Below are positions 19,887 to 26,737 of a DNA stretch of 64,000 nt, piece by piece (the stretch's first letter is position 1; the number at the start of each line of letters is the position of its first letter). The notes under the pieces were generated by a model, which saw only the letters and a program-made list of their open reading frames with translations, was not told where the DNA came from and ran no database searches. The DNA comes from Agarivorans sp. Toyoura001 (GTDB taxonomy: Bacteria > Pseudomonadota > Gammaproteobacteria > Enterobacterales > Celerinatantimonadaceae): NCBI RefSeq assembly GCF_005405585.1, contig NZ_BJEQ01000004.1, positions 62,001 through 126,000 of the forward strand. The letters run 5' to 3'. A program made the translations under genes and the position numbers.

Positions 19887-19906
19887 GTTACTTAAGCTTA
19901 AGTAAC
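19887..19906. promoter_or_regulatory. Perfect 20-bp palindrome GTTACTTAAGCTTAAGTAAC before the SatD operon
   Basis: It reads identically on both strands and lies 73-92 bases upstream of the satD-like ATG, where an operator is expected. A related site follows 21 bases later. No T-tract is attached, so it is not a terminator. Confidence 0.6.
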
Positions 19907-19927
19907 TTTAAATGGTTACATTTGATT

Positions 19928-19949
19928 AAGTAACTAATTTGGGTTACTT
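19928..19949. promoter_or_regulatory. Second GTAAC/GTTAC inverted repeat before the SatD operon
   Basis: AAGTAAC and GTTACTT face each other across 8 bases. The half-site AAGTAAC/GTTACTT is the same as in the palindrome at 19887-19906, which supports binding by one protein at both places. Confidence 0.5.
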
Positions 19950-19978: not shown

Positions 19979-20641
19979 ATGCAACAAGTAGCAGTGCTTA
20001 CCGGAGACTTAGTTGGCTCTAGTGAGCTGAGTAGCGAAGACTTCGCCAAAGTTTTACAACGTTTAAGTGAACACTTAGCGCAAGCGAGTGAGCAATATCA
20101 GTGTCGCTACGAGATTTTTCGGGGTGATGCTTTTCAGTTAGTGCTAAACGACCCACGCAATGCCCTAGAGTGCGCGCTAAGCATTCGCTTAGGTTTAAAA
20201 GCTTATGGCAGTAATGCACAAAATTTTGATGCGCGAATAGGCATTGGTATTGGTAAAATTGACCCGTTGGCGGAGTATGTTTCTCGCTCAAATGGCGAAG
20301 CTTTTATTCTTTCTGGGCGCGGGCTTGATAGTTTAAAGCGCCATTACTTAGGCATTTTTAATAACAATGAGCAGTTTGTGCAGCGTATTGCCTTGTTAAC
20401 CAAGTTTGCCGATCGTCAAATACAAGAACTTACCGTTAGGCAGGCTAAGGCCTTATTCTTATATTGGCAATTGGCCGAGCCTAGCCATGCTGCCTTGGCC
20501 GAGCAACTAAGCAGTTCGCGGGTAAATGCCACTAAGCTGCTTAATCAGTCGCAATATCAATTGCTAGACGAGTACAAACACTTTTTTAAACAACTTATGG
20601 ATGAGTTTTACTATGGAACAGCTAGCACAATTCGCTCTTAG
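19979..20641 (+). CDS. SatD-family protein: cyclase-like domain plus probable HTH
   Basis: A 220-residue cytoplasmic protein. Residues 1-130 resemble a class III nucleotidyl cyclase homology domain: LTGDLVGSSEL (Asp10), EIFRGDAFQLVL (Asp50), RIGIGIGKI and GEAFILSGRGLDSL. Both metal-binding aspartates align, but the substrate Lys before GD and the Asn of the usual N-x3-R are replaced, so catalysis is doubtful. Residues about 155-210 (LTVRQAKALFLYWQL, LAEQLSSSRVNATKLLNQSQ) look like a winged HTH. It is first in an apparent operon with DUF3307 and RecQ genes. It may be a nucleotide-sensing regulator of that operon; this is inference. Confidence 0.8.
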   Translation: MQQVAVLTGDLVGSSELSSEDFAKVLQRLSEHLAQASEQYQCRYEIFRGDAFQLVLNDPRNALECALSIRLGLKAYGSNAQNFDARIGIGIGKIDPLAEYVSRSNGEAFILSGRGLDSLKRHYLGIFNNNEQFVQRIALLTKFADRQIQELTVRQAKALFLYWQLAEPSHAALAEQLSSSRVNATKLLNQSQYQLLDEYKHFFKQLMDEFYYGTASTIRS

Positions 20642-21356
20642 CATCGGCTTGGCCTATGTCTTGTTTGAGTTTTATTGTATACCTGCTAACTGGGCTAGCA
20701 ATATTCAGCAATTAAAATTTGCTGCGCCCAATTTATATGGCCGAGCACTGGTTCTAAGCTTGATATTTATATTGCTGGCTTGGGCTTTAATAGGTGCCAG
20801 TGTGTCTTTACTGGTAGCTACCGCAGCGCTGCTGGTGGCGAGTATATTAATTGGTGGCGTGAGCGCGTATTTACCCGATACAAGCCGCTACTTTATAGGC
20901 CGACAATTAGCGCAAATGCTGGTGTTATTGTTGCTGGTGGTAGAGTTAACGCAGTCATGGGAACAGGTAGACGAGTTAAGCCAAAAACTACTAGAACCAG
21001 GCCCTTTAGTTATTGCTTTAGCGTATCTACTGATACTTAGCCCAAGTTCTAAATTGTTGGCGTTAGTTCTACAGCGTTGGAGCCCAATTACCCATCAACC
21101 AGAGCAAAATTTGCCTATGGCTGGCCAGGCAATTGGCATGGTTGAGCGCAGCTTAGTTGTAACCTGTGTGTTGCTGCATCAGTTTGCGGCCATTGGTTTT
21201 ATTGTGGCGGCCAAATCAATCTTTAGGTTTGGTGACTTAACCGGGCAGTCAGACCGTAAACTCACCGAATACGTTATGCTGGGCACTTTGCTAAGTGTGG
21301 CTATTAGCGTATTTACTGGCTTAGCCGCGCACGCTTTGTACGATGCTTTTAGCTAA
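20613..21356 (+). CDS. DUF3307 family membrane protein
   Basis: A 247-residue polytopic inner-membrane protein with about six hydrophobic segments. The C-terminal block IGFIVAAKSIFRFGDL followed by DRKLTEYVMLGTLLS is diagnostic of DUF3307; the usual N-terminal His/Asp motif of that family is degenerate here. The start overlaps satD by 29 bases (an alternative ATG at 20601 overlaps by 41), which indicates coupling. SatD and DUF3307 proteins are known as neighbours in other bacteria; the function of the pair is not established. Confidence 0.82.
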   Translation: MEQLAQFALSIGLAYVLFEFYCIPANWASNIQQLKFAAPNLYGRALVLSLIFILLAWALIGASVSLLVATAALLVASILIGGVSAYLPDTSRYFIGRQLAQMLVLLLLVVELTQSWEQVDELSQKLLEPGPLVIALAYLLILSPSSKLLALVLQRWSPITHQPEQNLPMAGQAIGMVERSLVVTCVLLHQFAAIGFIVAAKSIFRFGDLTGQSDRKLTEYVMLGTLLSVAISVFTGLAAHALYDAFS

Positions 21357-21391
21357 ATTTTCTTTTTAAACACTCAACGAGTAAACACAAC

Positions 21392-23341
21392 ATGAGCGAC
21401 GCTTTATTATTCCAGTTACAACAAACCTTTGGCTTTGAAAGCTTCCGCCATGGGCAAGCCCCAGTGGTAGAACGTTTGCTGGAACAGCGCTCGTGTTTAG
21501 CGATATTTCCCACCGGTTCTGGTAAATCCTTGTGTTACCAATTCACCGCTTTACAGCTACCACACCTTACTTTGGTGGTGTCGCCTTTATTAGCTTTAAT
21601 TAAAGATCAGTTGGAGTTTTTACAAGCTAAAGGAATCGCCGCAGCCAGTTTAGATTCAACCCTAAGCCCAGAGCAAAGCAAGCAGGTAATGAGTGATATT
21701 CGTAGCGGTAAAACCAAGATTTTAATGGTCTCGGTAGAGCGTTTTAAAAATGAGCGTTTTCGCCAGTTTATTCAATCGGTGCCTATGTCGATGTTGGTGG
21801 TTGACGAAGCGCACTGTATTTCTGAGTGGGGCCATAACTTTCGACCAGATTACCTAAAGCTGCCACAGTATCGCCAAGAGCTTAATATTCCACTGGTGCT
21901 GCTGTTAACCGCCACCGCCACTAAAAAAGTAAAGTTAGATATGGCTGCGCGGTTTGCGATTAATGAGCAAGACATTGTACAAACTGGTTTCTATCGTCCT
22001 AATTTAGATTTGTCGGTGCAAGCCTGTAGCAGTGCCGACAGACATCAAACCTTAAGCCAATTTGTTAACCAGCAAAGTGGGGCAGGGATTGTTTACGTTA
22101 CCTTGCAGCACACCGCAGAAGAGGTGGCTAAACACCTGCAACAGCAAGGCATAAATGCGGTGGCCTACCATGCCGGTTTTGCCAACGAACAGCGCCAGCA
22201 AACTCAAAATGATTTTATGAATGACAAGGTGCAAGTGGTGGTAGCTACCATTGCCTTTGGCATGGGGGTAGATAAAAGCAATATTCGTTTTGTGGTGCAT
22301 TATGATCTGCCGAAGTCGATTGAGAATTACAGCCAAGAGATTGGCCGGGCAGGGCGCGATGGGCAATTGTCGCAGTGTTTAACGCTAGCAAATTTAGACG
22401 GCTTAACCACTGTAGAGAACTTTGTTTATGGTGATACGCCAGAATTAAGCGGCGTGGAGAGTGTGCTAAACACTATACGAGAAGAAAGCCAAAACCAGCA
22501 GTGGGAAGTACAAATAAATACCCTGTGCAACCTAAGCAATATTCGCCAATTACCCTTAAAAACCTTGTTGGTGCAGTTAGAAATACAAGGTTTAGTTAAA
22601 CCTTTATATGCTTACTATGCCGATTTTAAATACAAATTCTTACAAGACAAAAATGCCGTATTAGCGCGCTTTTCTGGCGAGCGCTTGCAATTCATTCAAG
22701 CCATTTTTGAACATACCCAAATGAAGAAAATTTGGGGAAGCCTTAATTTTGATACGCTGTATCAGCAATACCAAGCCGAGCGCTCAAGAGTCGTTGCCGC
22801 CTTAGAGTATTTGGCGGAGCAGGGCCTAATTGAACTGGAAACCAAAAAAATTACCGAAGTGTATCAAGTGAATACCCAAGCCTTAGCAGAGCCAGAATTA
22901 GCTAGCCGTTTAAGTGCTTACTTTAATGATACCCAAACCAAAGAGATAAAACGGATTGCTCAGCTCGTCCGCTTTTTTGAGCTAGATAGCTGCTTAAGCT
23001 ACCAGTTAGCGCGTTATTTTGATGATAACAATGCACCCCAGCAATGTGGCCATTGCAGCGTGTGCCGAGGTCAAGTGGTTAAATTAGCTTATTCCACCGC
23101 AAGCGTTGCATTAAACGACGGGCAAATACTGAGTGACTTACAAGCTTTACACCTGCACCTTAGTACTGGCAACAAAGCCAAGCTAAGCCCGATTATGGCC
23201 TGCCGCTTCTTAACCGGCATTACCAGCCCTTGGTCTACCAAATTTAAGCTACGTCAACTCAGTGGGTTTGGCCGTTGTGAGCACTTACCTTACGCAAGTA
23301 CGCTTCAGCAGGTAGAGCGACTTTGGCCGCAATTGGCTTAG
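21392..23341 (+). CDS. RecQ-family ATP-dependent DNA helicase
   Basis: A 649-residue SF2 helicase. Motif I is FPTGSGKS (Lys45), motif II is DEAH (138-141) followed by the aromatic-rich loop CISEWGHNFRPDY, motif III is TATAT and motif VI is QEIGRAGRDG. A zinc-binding RecQ-C-type module has Cys534, Cys552, Cys555 and Cys558 (CGHCSVC). No HRDC domain is evident at the end. It follows the DUF3307 gene by 35 bases on the same strand. RecQ enzymes unwind DNA 3'-5' in repair. Whether it is the cell's main RecQ or an accessory one cannot be told here. Confidence 0.93.
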   Translation: MSDALLFQLQQTFGFESFRHGQAPVVERLLEQRSCLAIFPTGSGKSLCYQFTALQLPHLTLVVSPLLALIKDQLEFLQAKGIAAASLDSTLSPEQSKQVMSDIRSGKTKILMVSVERFKNERFRQFIQSVPMSMLVVDEAHCISEWGHNFRPDYLKLPQYRQELNIPLVLLLTATATKKVKLDMAARFAINEQDIVQTGFYRPNLDLSVQACSSADRHQTLSQFVNQQSGAGIVYVTLQHTAEEVAKHLQQQGINAVAYHAGFANEQRQQTQNDFMNDKVQVVVATIAFGMGVDKSNIRFVVHYDLPKSIENYSQEIGRAGRDGQLSQCLTLANLDGLTTVENFVYGDTPELSGVESVLNTIREESQNQQWEVQINTLCNLSNIRQLPLKTLLVQLEIQGLVKPLYAYYADFKYKFLQDKNAVLARFSGERLQFIQAIFEHTQMKKIWGSLNFDTLYQQYQAERSRVVAALEYLAEQGLIELETKKITEVYQVNTQALAEPELASRLSAYFNDTQTKEIKRIAQLVRFFELDSCLSYQLARYFDDNNAPQQCGHCSVCRGQVVKLAYSTASVALNDGQILSDLQALHLHLSTGNKAKLSPIMACRFLTGITSPWSTKFKLRQLSGFGRCEHLPYASTLQQVERLWPQLA

Positions 23342-23773: not shown

Positions 23774-26737
23774 ATGTTTACCAAATGGCCCAAGACGCCA
23801 ATTGCTCTCGCAGTATCTAGTGCTGTGGCACTGGTATTTAGCAGTACACCAGTGAACGCAATCTATACCCCCTGGGAAGGCTCATTTCATCAATACCCCG
23901 ATAGCTACTACGATGCTGACGGCCAATTGACAGAAGAAGCTTATGAAGAGCCTGAACAAGTGCCCGGAAATGGCTTATCTCCTTGGGATCCTGCCGATGC
24001 AGTTAAGCGTACTAGCCCTGAACATCAAAACTATCCGCTATCAGATTTAGCCAACCAAGGTGGTTGGACAATGGTAGAAAAACTTAGTGATGAATTTGAT
24101 AGCCCTCAGTTTAATGAGTACAACCTTATCGGCAAAGAAGCCGGTAAATGGTTACCTAATAATCATATTTGGGGTGGAAGAGCGCCAGCAGTATTTGCGC
24201 CTAAAAATGTTAAGCAAGAAGGCGGCAAACTACACCTCAGCATTAGCAGCGACGAAGCCTATACGCCACACGGTTTTTGGAATGAGTGGTATTACGGTTG
24301 GACGTCGGCCAGTGTGCAAAACGTAAACCCTATTCGTTATGGTTATTTTGAAGTTAAATCTAAAGTGGGCATTGGTTCTAGTGGCTTCTGGTTGTATGCC
24401 GAAACCTTAGAAGATAAGGAGTTTTTATCGCAGTTTAACGAGCCGGGACACGTTAAGAGTAAATTGGAGTTAGATGTTTATGAGCAGTCAGGTCGACGCT
24501 CAGAATGGGCTCCTTATTACAATATGAACTCGTGGGTCTTTATTCACCAAGGCGAAGAAATGTCTTACGTGAATGAAGAAGGCAATGAATACACGGCGTA
24601 TCAAAACGGTGGCCACTGGAAAGCCGACATCGATTTTGCTGATGATTTCCATGTCTACGGTTTTTACTGGGGACCTGAGGAAATCATCTGGTACTTCGAC
24701 GGCAAGCCTATTCGCTCAATGAAAAACCGTTACTACCATACACCGCTGTACTTGTTGTTGGATACCGAAACCATGCCTGATTGGTTTGGTATGCCAAGTG
24801 CCAATGAGCTAGATTTTGCTCACCAGATTGAATACGTGAGAGTGTGGACAAACGAACAAACTGAGCAAAATTGGCGTGGTCGTTACTTTATGGATCCCAC
24901 CATTAAAAGTGGTGACGGCTTAAACGGAAAACCCGGTGAGAACCGTGTAGCCGCAGAATACGGCGGTAGCGAAGCGTATCGTGAAAAATGGGGCAACCCT
25001 GTCAGTGGTTCGCCTGAAGTGATCACCTTGCAAGATATAGCGGCTAAGCAGAGCCATATCGAGATTCAAAGTGATATTCCTTATGTTTTAGTTCCACAAT
25101 TCACTCCAAGCAATGTTACCGATAAGCAAATGAACTGGGTGTCTAGCGACCCAAGTATTGCTGATATTAATCGCTCTGGCATGGTCACAACAAAAACAGC
25201 TGGTAGTGTCACCTTCACTGGTTCCCATGCCGACCTTCCAAGCAAGAGCATTAGTGTTAGTGCAGACATTTTGCAAATTGGTAAGCGTTTTGATTTGGAG
25301 TTGGTTAACTACGGTGCAACCGGTAAAGACGGGGAAGAGGTTGAGAACGACAACGTGTTTGGCTGGGGCGTAGGCAACGGCGTAATTACCTTTAATACCC
25401 GTGGCGACTATGGAGACTTCTTTGACGTTGATTTTGGCAGTGGTGGCACTTACATGGCAGGAGTCTCTGCTGGCACCGACATTGCTAACGGCATTGGTGT
25501 AACGATATTCATTGATGGCGTTGAAGTTCTTAGCGGTGACATTGCTTCCTCAGGGAATTGGAACGTGAATAAACGCACTGATCTGGCAGGCTTGTTTGAG
25601 GTAGAACCCGGTACTCATACTGTTCGAGTGATGAGTTCAGGTAGTTCTGGTTGGCAGTGGAATGGCGCCCGCGCGCACTTTACTCAAGTATTAGAGGGGG
25701 ATGTTGACCCAGGCGATGGCGGCACAGACCCTGGTGATGGCGGCACAGACCCTGGTGATGGCGGCACAGACCCTGGTGATGGCGGAACAGATCCAGGTGA
25801 TGGTGGCACAGACCCAGGTGACGGTGGCACAGATCCAGGTGACGGCGGCACAGACCCAGGTGACGGTGGCACAGATCCAGGTGACGGTGGTACAGATCCC
25901 GTTGCAGTGACACTGCAAGCTCAAAACTTTGTCGCAACCGGAGGCGACAATGGTGGTTTTGAGGTGTATGACATTGCTGGCGGCCAAGGTATCAACTTTA
26001 ATCAAACTGGCGACTATGCAGACTATACAGTAGAGTTGGCTGCGGCTAGTTATACGGTGACGTTGCGAGCGGGTACCACCATGGCTAATGCGGGTGTAGA
26101 GCTGCTTGTTAATGGTCAATCTGCGGGCGTGACTAGCATTAATGCCACCGGTGGTTGGGATGCTTTTCAAGACTTTGTAATCGCAGATAATCTATTGATT
26201 GACGCTAGTGGTGAACAAAGTATTCGCTTAATTAGTGTTGGTGAACCCAATGCGTGGCAATGGAACGCCGACAACCTAGTGTTTACACCCATTAGTGATA
26301 GTGGTGGCACTGAGCCCGGCACCGACCCAACCCCCGATGAACAAGTCATAGAGATAGAAGCTGAAAGCTTTAGCGCAACAGGAGGCGCTTATGATGGCTT
26401 CCAAACCTACAACGTTAATGGTGGTTCAGCGATTAACTTCAATCAAACCGGTGATTATGCCGACTACGTGATTAGCGTTAATGAGGCTGGGGTTTATCGT
26501 TTAAGCATTGATGCTGGCACAACAATGCCTAATGCGGGCATTGAGGTTTTAGTCGATGGGCAATCAGTAGCAACGGCTGTCATTAGCAATAACGGCTCTT
26601 GGGATGAATTTGTGGCTAACCTGATTAGCGACAGCGTGACGCTGAGCGAAGGCCAGCATACTATTCGTATTATGAGTATCGGTGAAGCGGGTGACTGGCA
26701 ATGGAATGCGGATAAATTTTCGCTAACTAAAAGCTAG
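23774..26737 (+). CDS. Secreted GH16 agarase-type enzyme with Big_2-like and three CBM6-like domains
   Basis: A 987-residue secreted enzyme. A signal peptide ends at PVNA (about residue 29). The GH16 domain (about 85-375) has the catalytic motif ELDVYE with nucleophile Glu232, Asp234 and acid/base Glu237, and YGYFEVKSKVGIGSSGFWLY. A Big_2-like domain lies near 420-505 (WVSSDPSIADINRSGMVTT). A first CBM6-like module (about 510-640), a linker of nine DPGDGGT units (645-707), and two further CBM6 modules (about 712-850, 860-987) with GDYADY and WQWNAD motifs complete it. Sequence near the active site favours beta-agarase or porphyranase; the window's context favours agar. Own terminator; single gene. 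Confidence 0.93.
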   Translation: MFTKWPKTPIALAVSSAVALVFSSTPVNAIYTPWEGSFHQYPDSYYDADGQLTEEAYEEPEQVPGNGLSPWDPADAVKRTSPEHQNYPLSDLANQGGWTMVEKLSDEFDSPQFNEYNLIGKEAGKWLPNNHIWGGRAPAVFAPKNVKQEGGKLHLSISSDEAYTPHGFWNEWYYGWTSASVQNVNPIRYGYFEVKSKVGIGSSGFWLYAETLEDKEFLSQFNEPGHVKSKLELDVYEQSGRRSEWAPYYNMNSWVFIHQGEEMSYVNEEGNEYTAYQNGGHWKADIDFADDFHVYGFYWGPEEIIWYFDGKPIRSMKNRYYHTPLYLLLDTETMPDWFGMPSANELDFAHQIEYVRVWTNEQTEQNWRGRYFMDPTIKSGDGLNGKPGENRVAAEYGGSEAYREKWGNPVSGSPEVITLQDIAAKQSHIEIQSDIPYVLVPQFTPSNVTDKQMNWVSSDPSIADINRSGMVTTKTAGSVTFTGSHADLPSKSISVSADILQIGKRFDLELVNYGATGKDGEEVENDNVFGWGVGNGVITFNTRGDYGDFFDVDFGSGGTYMAGVSAGTDIANGIGVTIFIDGVEVLSGDIASSGNWNVNKRTDLAGLFEVEPGTHTVRVMSSGSSGWQWNGARAHFTQVLEGDVDPGDGGTDPGDGGTDPGDGGTDPGDGGTDPGDGGTDPGDGGTDPGDGGTDPGDGGTDPGDGGTDPVAVTLQAQNFVATGGDNGGFEVYDIAGGQGINFNQTGDYADYTVELAAASYTVTLRAGTTMANAGVELLVNGQSAGVTSINATGGWDAFQDFVIADNLLIDASGEQSIRLISVGEPNAWQWNADNLVFTPISDSGGTEPGTDPTPDEQVIEIEAESFSATGGAYDGFQTYNVNGGSAINFNQTGDYADYVISVNEAGVYRLSIDAGTTMPNAGIEVLVDGQSVATAVISNNGSWDEFVANLISDSVTLSEGQHTIRIMSIGEAGDWQWNADKFSLTKS
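25706..25894 (+). repeat. Nine tandem 21-bp units encoding the DPGDGGT linker
   Basis: 189 bases divide exactly into nine 21-base units. The first four are nearly identical, later ones differ at third codon positions. The array keeps frame, so unit gain or loss would change linker length only. It separates the catalytic half from the last two CBM6 modules. Confidence 0.95.

Follow-up and report, generated by a model that had tools for sequence, protein, structure and literature searches.

A SatD-DUF3307 gene pair with a candidate promoter array, followed by recQ in one genus

Three genes, encoding a SatD-like protein, a DUF3307-like membrane protein and a RecQ-family helicase, follow one another on a single strand of the 64,000-nt window (the whole stretch of DNA analyzed here), and the locus raises the question of whether they work as one module. 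The first-pass annotation had described the three genes with a 29-base overlap and a 35-base gap, and these were found as placed. The overlap between satD and the DUF3307 gene was 29 bases when counted from ATG 20613, the DUF3307 start common to the genus alignment, and 41 bases from ATG 20601; the gap between DUF3307 and recQ was 35 bases. The features of the locus are as follows.

19887..19947, no strand: candidate operator array in the satD promoter, GTTAC/GTAAC half-sites with a period of 28
19979..20641, + strand: satD-like gene, 220 aa, cyclase-fold domain at residues 1-130 and C-terminal HTH at about residues 150-195
20613..21356, + strand: gene of the DUF3307-like membrane protein (longest ORF 20601-21356, 251 aa)
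20613..20975, + strand: DUF3307 N-terminal domain, in which the family's ten near-invariant polar residues are all replaced
21096..21353, + strand: C-terminal domain of the membrane protein, which goes with SatD (IG..ER ... AAKSIFRFGDL ... TEYVxLGT)
21392..23341, + strand: RecQ-family helicase, 649 aa, second paralogue, a neighbor of the pair in the window's genus only

Pairing of satD with DUF3307 and the position of recQ

The gene order was examined in 80 pair loci out of at least 557 related ones. In 79 of the 80, satD was the gene immediately preceding DUF3307, and the remaining locus was cut by a contig end. The pairing was also seen in all 10 relatives having either gene and in all 12 of the Pseudomonadota genomes that gave a full-length match (two of them also among the 10 relatives), and SatD was upstream in each of the nine plasmid records examined out of 17 listed. 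A Fusobacterium pair scored above both Pfam cut-offs (SatD, 53.5 bits; DUF3307, 58.7 bits). The full-length DUF3307 form was patchy, occurring in 12 of 299 Pseudomonadota genomes. Mainly the N-terminal domain was detected in 12 of the 27 DUF3307-matching genomes, with no SatD found nearby, where the result for ten of the 12 came from a search that also overlooked the divergent SatD proteins of G271 and G340.

The helicase was assigned to the RecQ family by TIGR00614 (384.8 bits against a cut-off of 219.8), and a second RecQ-like frame of 606 aa was present elsewhere in the same genome. This recQ followed satD-DUF3307 in all seven genomes of the genus and only there. It was away from any such pair in 19 of the 26 genomes carrying this RecQ, including all three genomes outside the genus that have both RecQ and the pair. 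A recQ standing apart from satD-DUF3307 in relatives is the finding that the first-pass annotation had named as contradicting its reading. Counting recQ-type genes behind the pair in other genomes, a check proposed in the first-pass annotation, gave no RecQ-level neighbor at the 80 loci (of at least 557) over flanks of at most 7 kb, five loci having less than 2 kb downstream; a convergent gene for a helicase of 464-525 aa, scoring 61-66 bits, was found at 17 of the 80. The adjacency of the pair is thus beyond chance, while that of recQ is not, and recQ was rejected as a member of the unit. What is conserved, and widespread, is best taken to be satD-DUF3307 together with the array in its promoter rather than the whole three-gene set.

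The annotation had read the locus as an undescribed DNA-linked sensing system. The pair of SatD and membrane protein stood up to this comparison, and no description of it as a unit was found in the open-licence PMC literature searched, where a single paper names DUF3307; recQ dropped out, and 'DNA-linked' is therefore unsupported. A three-gene sensing or defense module in which RecQ is a functional component is consistent with the adjacency of the genes on one strand, the short gap and the retention of the order throughout the genus. The RecQ protein was also matched by 56 PADLOC models, including DpdF (435 bits) and PsyrT (374 bits), which we take to reflect the shared RecQ core. Such a module is nevertheless extremely improbable given the separate location of most RecQ relatives and the pair loci devoid of a RecQ-level neighbor. 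In addition, recQ of G006 shifts frame near codon 550, whereas satD (the TAG being its own stop) and DUF3307 stay open in that genome.

SatD and the array upstream of its gene

SatD gave 18.7 bits against Pfam PF16264, under the gathering cut-off of 29, and this model matched 41 of 72 SatD relatives at E<=0.1. The structure prediction that the annotation had called for yielded a model of high confidence (pLDDT 95.4) with a class III cyclase/GGDEF-type fold and a helical C-terminus. Its best match was 5mbg (Z 11.6, rmsd 3.1, 142 aligned), tied with GGDEF and GTP cyclohydrolase III structures within 1 Z; Foldseek gave a best E of 2.3e-6 (7yz9), and the structure matches included a cUMP synthase. 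Single HTH models matched up to 20 of the 72 relatives (E<=0.1). The class III cyclase-like fold and probable HTH noted from the sequence were thus confirmed by the model and the profile matches, as were the two metal-binding aspartates said to be retained: Asp10 and Asp50 aligned with the Asp residues of TDIEES and QGDGF in the cyclase Ma1120, and were invariant across the 72 SatD rows (a 90% identity cut left 72 SatD and 70 DUF3307 rows for the structure alignment). The reported lack of the substrate Lys also held, the Ma1120 position being Ile46 in SatD. The transition-state Asn was not seen and the Arg was not conserved, as judged by eye from the GEAF-LSGRGLD motif without residue alignment.

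These features suggested that SatD looks like a DNA-binding regulator with a nucleotide-type fold, whose cyclase-like sensing domain is probably catalytically dead. An active nucleotide cyclase signaling to a membrane effector in the manner of Pycsar would account for the fold, the cUMP synthase among the matches and both metal aspartates, but the substitution at Ile46, together with an Asn that seems to be missing and an Arg that seems variable in the motif, makes it very unlikely. To our knowledge, Pycsar also has no place for a DNA-binding HTH or an operator array.

The upstream region of satD contained five half-sites, GTTAC at 19887-19891, GTAAC at 19902-19906, GTTAC at 19915-19919, GTAAC at 19930-19934 and GTTAC at 19943-19947, alternately inverted with start-to-start spacings of 15, 13, 15 and 13, corresponding to a period of 28. 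This array was absent from the first-pass annotation, as was the replacement of the polar residues in DUF3307 described below. The lag-28 self-similarity averaged 14.4 upstream of satD and 0.4 in controls, and the signal was detected in 76% of 89 satD upstream regions (91 before removal of near-copies) against 6% of 614 controls, which include coding regions. Chains of at least four alternating half-sites were present in 48 of the 89 and in one of the 614; no chain of three was found in 22 of the 89, and 40 of the 614 controls had one. The same self-similarity score was reached at some lag by 108 of the 614 controls, five of these at 27-29. The promoter and terminator scan of the locus remained near chance level.

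The 28-bp period was kept across lineages with differing half-site letters. Exact copies of the array occurred at satD only, in the window's own genome and its genus, and all matches of a TTAGCC version were at satD in the six other genomes or plasmids carrying it (6/6). One-mismatch matches elsewhere numbered 11 across the seven genus genomes, compared with five for a control pattern. The identity of the SatD recognition helices was 58% between proteins with the same half-site and 29% between those with different ones, in non-independent pairs confounded by ancestry; the comparison covered four half-site words present in at least three loci each (38 loci), for pairs below 45% cyclase-domain identity. 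We defined a SatD-type regulator by the GD..xS and RGD.FQ motifs, a C-terminal HTH, a membrane partner downstream and a 28-bp array upstream, all of which were seen for the window SatD; a 213-aa ORF represents satD in G335. Judging from these sequence patterns, SatD most likely serves as a dedicated autoregulator. They strongly suggest that the HTH binds the alternating inverted half-sites in its own promoter, and SatD would therefore control mainly its own operon.

The membrane partner

The DUF3307-like protein scored 21.2 bits against Pfam PF11750, under the gathering cut-off of 23, with an alignable N-terminal domain, and its model (pLDDT 91.6) was all helical. No solved structure was matched by sequence, the best Foldseek E was 1.6, and the VIA Z of at most 6.6 was uninformative because the protein is helical. 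Kinship with YdjM/DUF457 metal-dependent hydrolases was considered for the N-terminal domain because the SHxxxD motif is common to both, and was rejected at an hhalign probability of 0.1% (66 rows against 19 YdjM proteins).

Among 91 DUF3307 proteins, the ten near-invariant polar residues were complete in 70 and nine were present in eight. They sit in four helices in the relatives, and their conservation and helix spacing indicate that they are possibly a membrane metal site. The window protein had none of the ten, and the genus rows (four of the seven genomes) likewise had none but kept the C-terminal domain. This domain changed slowly in the genus (dN 0.04-0.18); set against canonical pairs whose C-domain identity is comparable, the N-terminal domain there was not clearly relaxed, the comparisons with G006 being the exception. 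The C-terminal domain is outside the matched PF11750 range, and in three lineages SatD adjoined a protein with this domain but no recognizable DUF3307 domain. SatD was missing beside a single marginal protein with the C-domain, that of G233 (15 bits).

From comparison of the genes, we consider it probable that SatD is an autoregulator joined to its membrane partner via the C-terminal domain of the latter, with the polar site lost and recQ added in the window's genus. Because of the strict pairing, SatD may act together with that domain, which would hold, release or be controlled by SatD. In most relatives the membrane-embedded polar, possibly metal-binding, site of the partner would be the output, while the genus would have lost this site and kept the regulator, array and C-terminal domain. 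As the third gene there, recQ is probably co-transcribed, and its position would hence bring it under SatD control.

Possible roles and known systems

The role of the pair was considered from its settings. Small plasmids of 3.77 kb (six records) and 4.42 kb carried satD-DUF3307 as their main cargo, one plasmid of each size being examined. In two hand-picked island contexts, the pair on a Sphingomonas plasmid adjoined a Pycsar system (cyclase plus effector) in a region that also carries TIR and ImmA genes, and SatD on pAt was near HEPN, HipA and antitoxin genes. According to passages of PMC11323703, satD of Streptococcus pyogenes is essential in the strains that were tested but is carried by 178 of 249 genomes. 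The plasmid cargo and this essential but accessory gene, if it belongs to the same module, make a toxin-antitoxin or defense function a live rival, on grounds other than those given in the first-pass annotation for a stress or defense module. SatD would be an autoregulating antitoxin or sensor and the membrane protein with intact site a toxin or abortive-infection effector, tamed in the genus by loss of the site. The regulator-first order, the often overlapping genes, the multi-site operator and the presence of SatD at all 79 uncut DUF3307 loci (among 80 of at least 557) agree with this. On the other hand, no PADLOC model matched SatD or DUF3307 at E<=1, one Proteus DUF3307 query found no match in 50,697 phage records, and none was confirmed in viral contigs. 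DUF3307 without nearby SatD exists, and 17 of the 24 Pseudoalteromonas loci (among the 80 of at least 557) share one chromosomal setting, unlike islands. A blastn search of E. coli complete genomes with the pEC34A pair gave no match. We regard this function as possible but not the likeliest, and somewhat more doubtful still is its extended form, a mobile module, toxin-antitoxin-like or anti-phage in nature, found in both bacteria and archaea, in which a nucleotide-sensing pseudo-cyclase represses through the 28-bp array and restrains a membrane metalloenzyme, disarmed in the genus copy. The toxin-antitoxin reading is compatible with the autoregulated pair and names its purpose.

An unlikely alternative is envelope or acid-stress homeostasis, in which DUF3307 would be a metal enzyme or transporter of the membrane that some strains require, and SatD its transcription factor. 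It accords poorly with the patchy distribution of the full-length form and with a genus that has lost the site but retained the pair, and the title of the S. mutans study (Kremer 2001) reportedly credits Ffh. The conserved polar residues in four helices of a membrane protein, the DUF3307 domains occurring alone and the suggestive sat name (secretion and acid tolerance) favor it, and passages of PMC12077213 and PMC11323703 tie the sat genes to acid tolerance in Streptococcus mutans; in the passages found on SatD it carries just a family or acid-tolerance label.

Two orphan families become a single testable module through the strict pairing, a 28-bp rule that outlives half-site change and a membrane site that can be removed. 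Such a module may account for the essential yet non-universal satD of S. pyogenes (PMC11323703, in part). The operator geometry can be used to search for further modules of this kind and to match SatD variants to their DNA targets.

Among known families, the window RecQ shares the RecQ core and zinc-binding domain with RecQ helicases and differs as a second paralogue for which Pfam reported no HRDC. The N-terminus of SatD weakly matches PF16264, but falls below the cut-off, and its setting differs from the streptococcal sat operon, in which satCDE occurs with ffh and ylxM (PMC12077213, as excerpted). The membrane protein shares an alignable N-terminal domain with PF11750, but is below the cut-off and lacks all ten polar residues. 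Pycsar likewise combines a cyclase fold with a neighboring membrane protein, and one pair stands beside such a system; SatD differs in its replaced substrate Lys and its HTH, and no PADLOC model matched it. Type II toxin-antitoxin operons have the regulator first, overlapping genes, a multi-site palindromic operator and plasmid cargo. The SatD pair, with its candidate operator, shares all four, and differs in its membrane partner and in a cyclase-like protein that would be an unusual antitoxin.

The three genes and the place of recQ

The first-pass annotation had joined a satD-like gene, a DUF3307 membrane protein gene and a recQ-type helicase gene into one operon, proposed as a DNA-linked sensing, stress or defence module. 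The coordinates and common strand of the three genes were confirmed, as were the 35-base gap between the DUF3307 gene and recQ and, given the DUF3307 start common to the genus alignment, the 29-base overlap of the first two genes.

19887-19947: half-site array of five alternating sites, with spacings of 15, 13, 15 and 13 bp
19979-20641, + strand: satD-like gene
20613-21356, + strand: DUF3307-like gene (longest ORF from 20601)
21392-23341, + strand: recQ

A Pfam search of the window proteins gave a strong match for RecQ and scores under the cut-offs for SatD and DUF3307. The locus is real, but its boundaries had been drawn wrongly: the unit is a SatD-membrane protein pair with a putative self-operator array, present here as a variant without the conserved polar residues of DUF3307, and located upstream of a second recQ. 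A 606-aa RecQ-like frame occurs elsewhere in the same genome (G000:C15).

A search of 60 genomes, among them that of the window, detected SatD in 10 and DUF3307 in the identical 10, with the two genes adjacent in every case. A near-full-length relative of the window RecQ (at least 690 bits; in G006 the match reaches residue 552 only) was present in 26 of the 60. It directly followed the pair in seven genomes, all of the window's genus, lay on another contig or more than 1 Mb off in three pair-bearing genomes outside the genus (G033, G041, G050), and occurred in 16 genomes in which no pair was found. The recQ of G006 (locus L017, from 7611) showed a frame change near codon 550, caused by sequencing error or decay. 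No RecQ-level neighbour was found in 80 DUF3307 loci (of at least 557 related loci) with flanks of up to 7 kb, five of which had less than 2 kb of downstream sequence; a convergent helicase in 17 of these 80 loci, all Pseudoalteromonas, reached merely 61-66 bits. The three genes were, however, kept together in 7/7 genus genomes. RecQ is a neighbour of the pair and not a conserved member, and its proposed role as a working member was not borne out, as its relatives occur away from the pair or without it. The window RecQ matched the PADLOC models DpdF and PsyrT, probably owing to the common RecQ core.

Downstream of recQ, a gene for a 987-aa protein whose linker consists of DPGDGGT repeats (23774-26737) had a relative at the equivalent place in one genus member (G005, locus L016) and was absent from the compared stretches of the other five.

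The SatD-DUF3307 pair and its proteins

SatD stood directly 5' of DUF3307 in 79 of the 80 loci, the 80th beginning at a contig end, and the loci covered Alteromonas, Pseudoalteromonas, Proteus, Vibrio, Halomonas, Marinomonas, Flavobacterium and Bacteroides, among others. Both genes of a Fusobacterium pair exceeded the Pfam cut-offs, and a haloarchaeal plasmid carried the pair, annotated as SatD family protein and DUF3307. The SatD/DUF3307 pair is the unit. The DUF3307 profile matched 27 of 299 Pseudomonadota genomes. Twelve had the full-length protein, with SatD adjoining in all 12, and three (G254, G271, G340) had the C-terminal domain but no DUF3307 domain that could be recognised, with a SatD-like gene adjoining in all three. 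In the remaining 12, matched mainly in the N-terminal domain, adjacent SatD was not found, by direct inspection in G286 and G233 and in the other ten by a search that missed the SatD of G271 and G340; G233 had a marginal C-domain match of 15 bits, again with no adjacent SatD found. This distribution indicated that the C-terminal domain is the part associated with SatD and that the DUF3307 domain proper is separable. In Aerococcus tenax (locus L169), a SatD-like gene, preceded by a ribonuclease/barstar pair, was followed by a different membrane partner, a 644-aa DUF975 protein.

The predicted SatD structure (pLDDT 95.4) consisted of a class III cyclase/GGDEF-type domain, as the annotation had suggested, and a helical C-terminus, which HTH profiles matched in relatives, in agreement with the suggested HTH. 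Both SatD aspartates aligned with the metal-binding ones of the cyclase Ma1120 and the Ma1120 lysine aligned with Ile46, consistent with the reported retention of the metal site and loss of the substrate lysine.

The DUF3307 model was all helical (pLDDT 91.6), and structure comparison gave no convincing solved relative. Ten polar residues of the N-terminal domain (H19, D23, Q27, H48, H52, H81, D85, K88, D101, H105) were each present in 62-66 of 66 non-genus rows and may bind metal. They fall within four predicted helices or at a helix end, most of them with a spacing of four residues. Nine or ten of these polar residues were kept in 78 of 91 DUF3307/C-domain proteins, none in the four genus rows tested, and one, two, four, five, six and seven in loci L138, L020, L126, L069, L109 and L103, respectively; the remaining three were the G254, G271 and G340 proteins, which have the C-domain. 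The rows lacking the residues require at least two changes on the SatD tree, where L020 groups with the half-decayed L069, apart from the window's genus. The tested C-terminal residues were intact in all full-length site-less or decayed rows. Within the genus, dN was 0.04-0.18 for the C-terminal and 0.32-0.68 for the N-terminal domain, with dS mostly saturated, and relaxation of the N-terminal domain is not proven, as canonical pairs of like C-domain identity showed a similar rate contrast. The kept locus with a lost polar site suggests that the copy in this genus has been disarmed or re-used.

The array upstream of satD

A dyad search of 67 satD upstream regions detected GTAAC-N8-GTTAC in 24 and GTTAC-N10-GTAAC in 22, whereas no 5-base dyad exceeded three regions in 20 base shuffles. 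The self-similarity of 89 dereplicated satD upstreams peaked at lag 28, with a mean of 14.4 versus 0.4 for 614 controls (upstreams of genes other than satD at these loci, coding DNA included) and a signal in 76% versus 6% of regions, and echoes were seen at lags 29, 56 and 58. In 60 of the 89, the best lag was 28 or 29 and scored 12 or more; 108 of the 614 controls reached 12 at some lag, five of them at 27-29. A chain of four or more alternating half-sites was found in 48/89 satD upstreams versus 1/614 controls, and one of three or more in 67/89 versus 40/614. Spacings between neighbouring half-sites were mainly 13 (102) and 15 (82), summing to 28. The half-site letters varied by lineage (27 words in 67 loci, some being shifted registers of one site), and the pitch stayed at 28-29 despite these differences.

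All three exact matches of the array in the own genome were at satD, with a single one-mismatch match away from it and two-mismatch matches about as frequent as those of the control pattern. In the seven genus genomes, all exact matches were likewise at satD, and 11 one-mismatch matches lay off it versus five for the control pattern. For the TTAGCC-type array, allowing up to two mismatches, every match in six genomes or plasmids was at satD and the control matched none. The array is nearly exclusive to satD. Among distant SatD pairs, identity in the recognition helix was 58% for the same half-site versus 29% for different ones, when compared with 37% versus 33% in the cyclase domain and 33% versus 27% in the linker. 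These sequence comparisons, in which shared ancestry remains a component of the helix values, point to SatD as the predicted binder of the array, acting chiefly on its own operon. SatD would bind the array, and the DUF3307 partner may modulate SatD.

Comparison with toxin-antitoxin and defence systems

A toxin-antitoxin or defence unit fits the pair, and such a purpose may be what it serves, although no PADLOC model matched SatD or DUF3307, stand-alone DUF3307 domains exist, and 17 of 24 Pseudoalteromonas loci (among the 80 of at least 557) have one chromosomal setting in common. For the Ralstonia jumbo phage RsoM2USA, a stand-alone 134-aa DUF3307 protein is listed, ORF187 (PMC8504454). Short forms of this type are apparently distant relatives of those paired with SatD, since tblastn with a Proteus DUF3307 found no relative in 50,697 phage records. 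Among the plasmid and island contexts, which were hand-picked, plasmids of 3.77 and 4.42 kb from E. coli and Klebsiella carried the pair as their main cargo; NC_019077.1 (L120) and NZ_LR890364.1 (L127) encode SatD and a 332-aa DUF3307 protein with an insert between its two domains. On a Sphingomonas insulae plasmid (L123), the pair adjoins a Pycsar cyclase/effector, with TIR and ImmA/IrrE genes nearby, and on pAt, SatD and a small partner lie near HEPN, HipA and antitoxin genes. The main text of a Streptococcus pyogenes essentiality study (PMC11323703) does not contain the word antitoxin, and reports satD as the sole accessory gene to fall within the top quartile for essentiality. The tested emm1, emm28 and emm49 strains required satD, yet the gene was present in 178 of 249 genomes, and an essential but accessory gene of this kind is in line with a toxin-antitoxin or defence unit.
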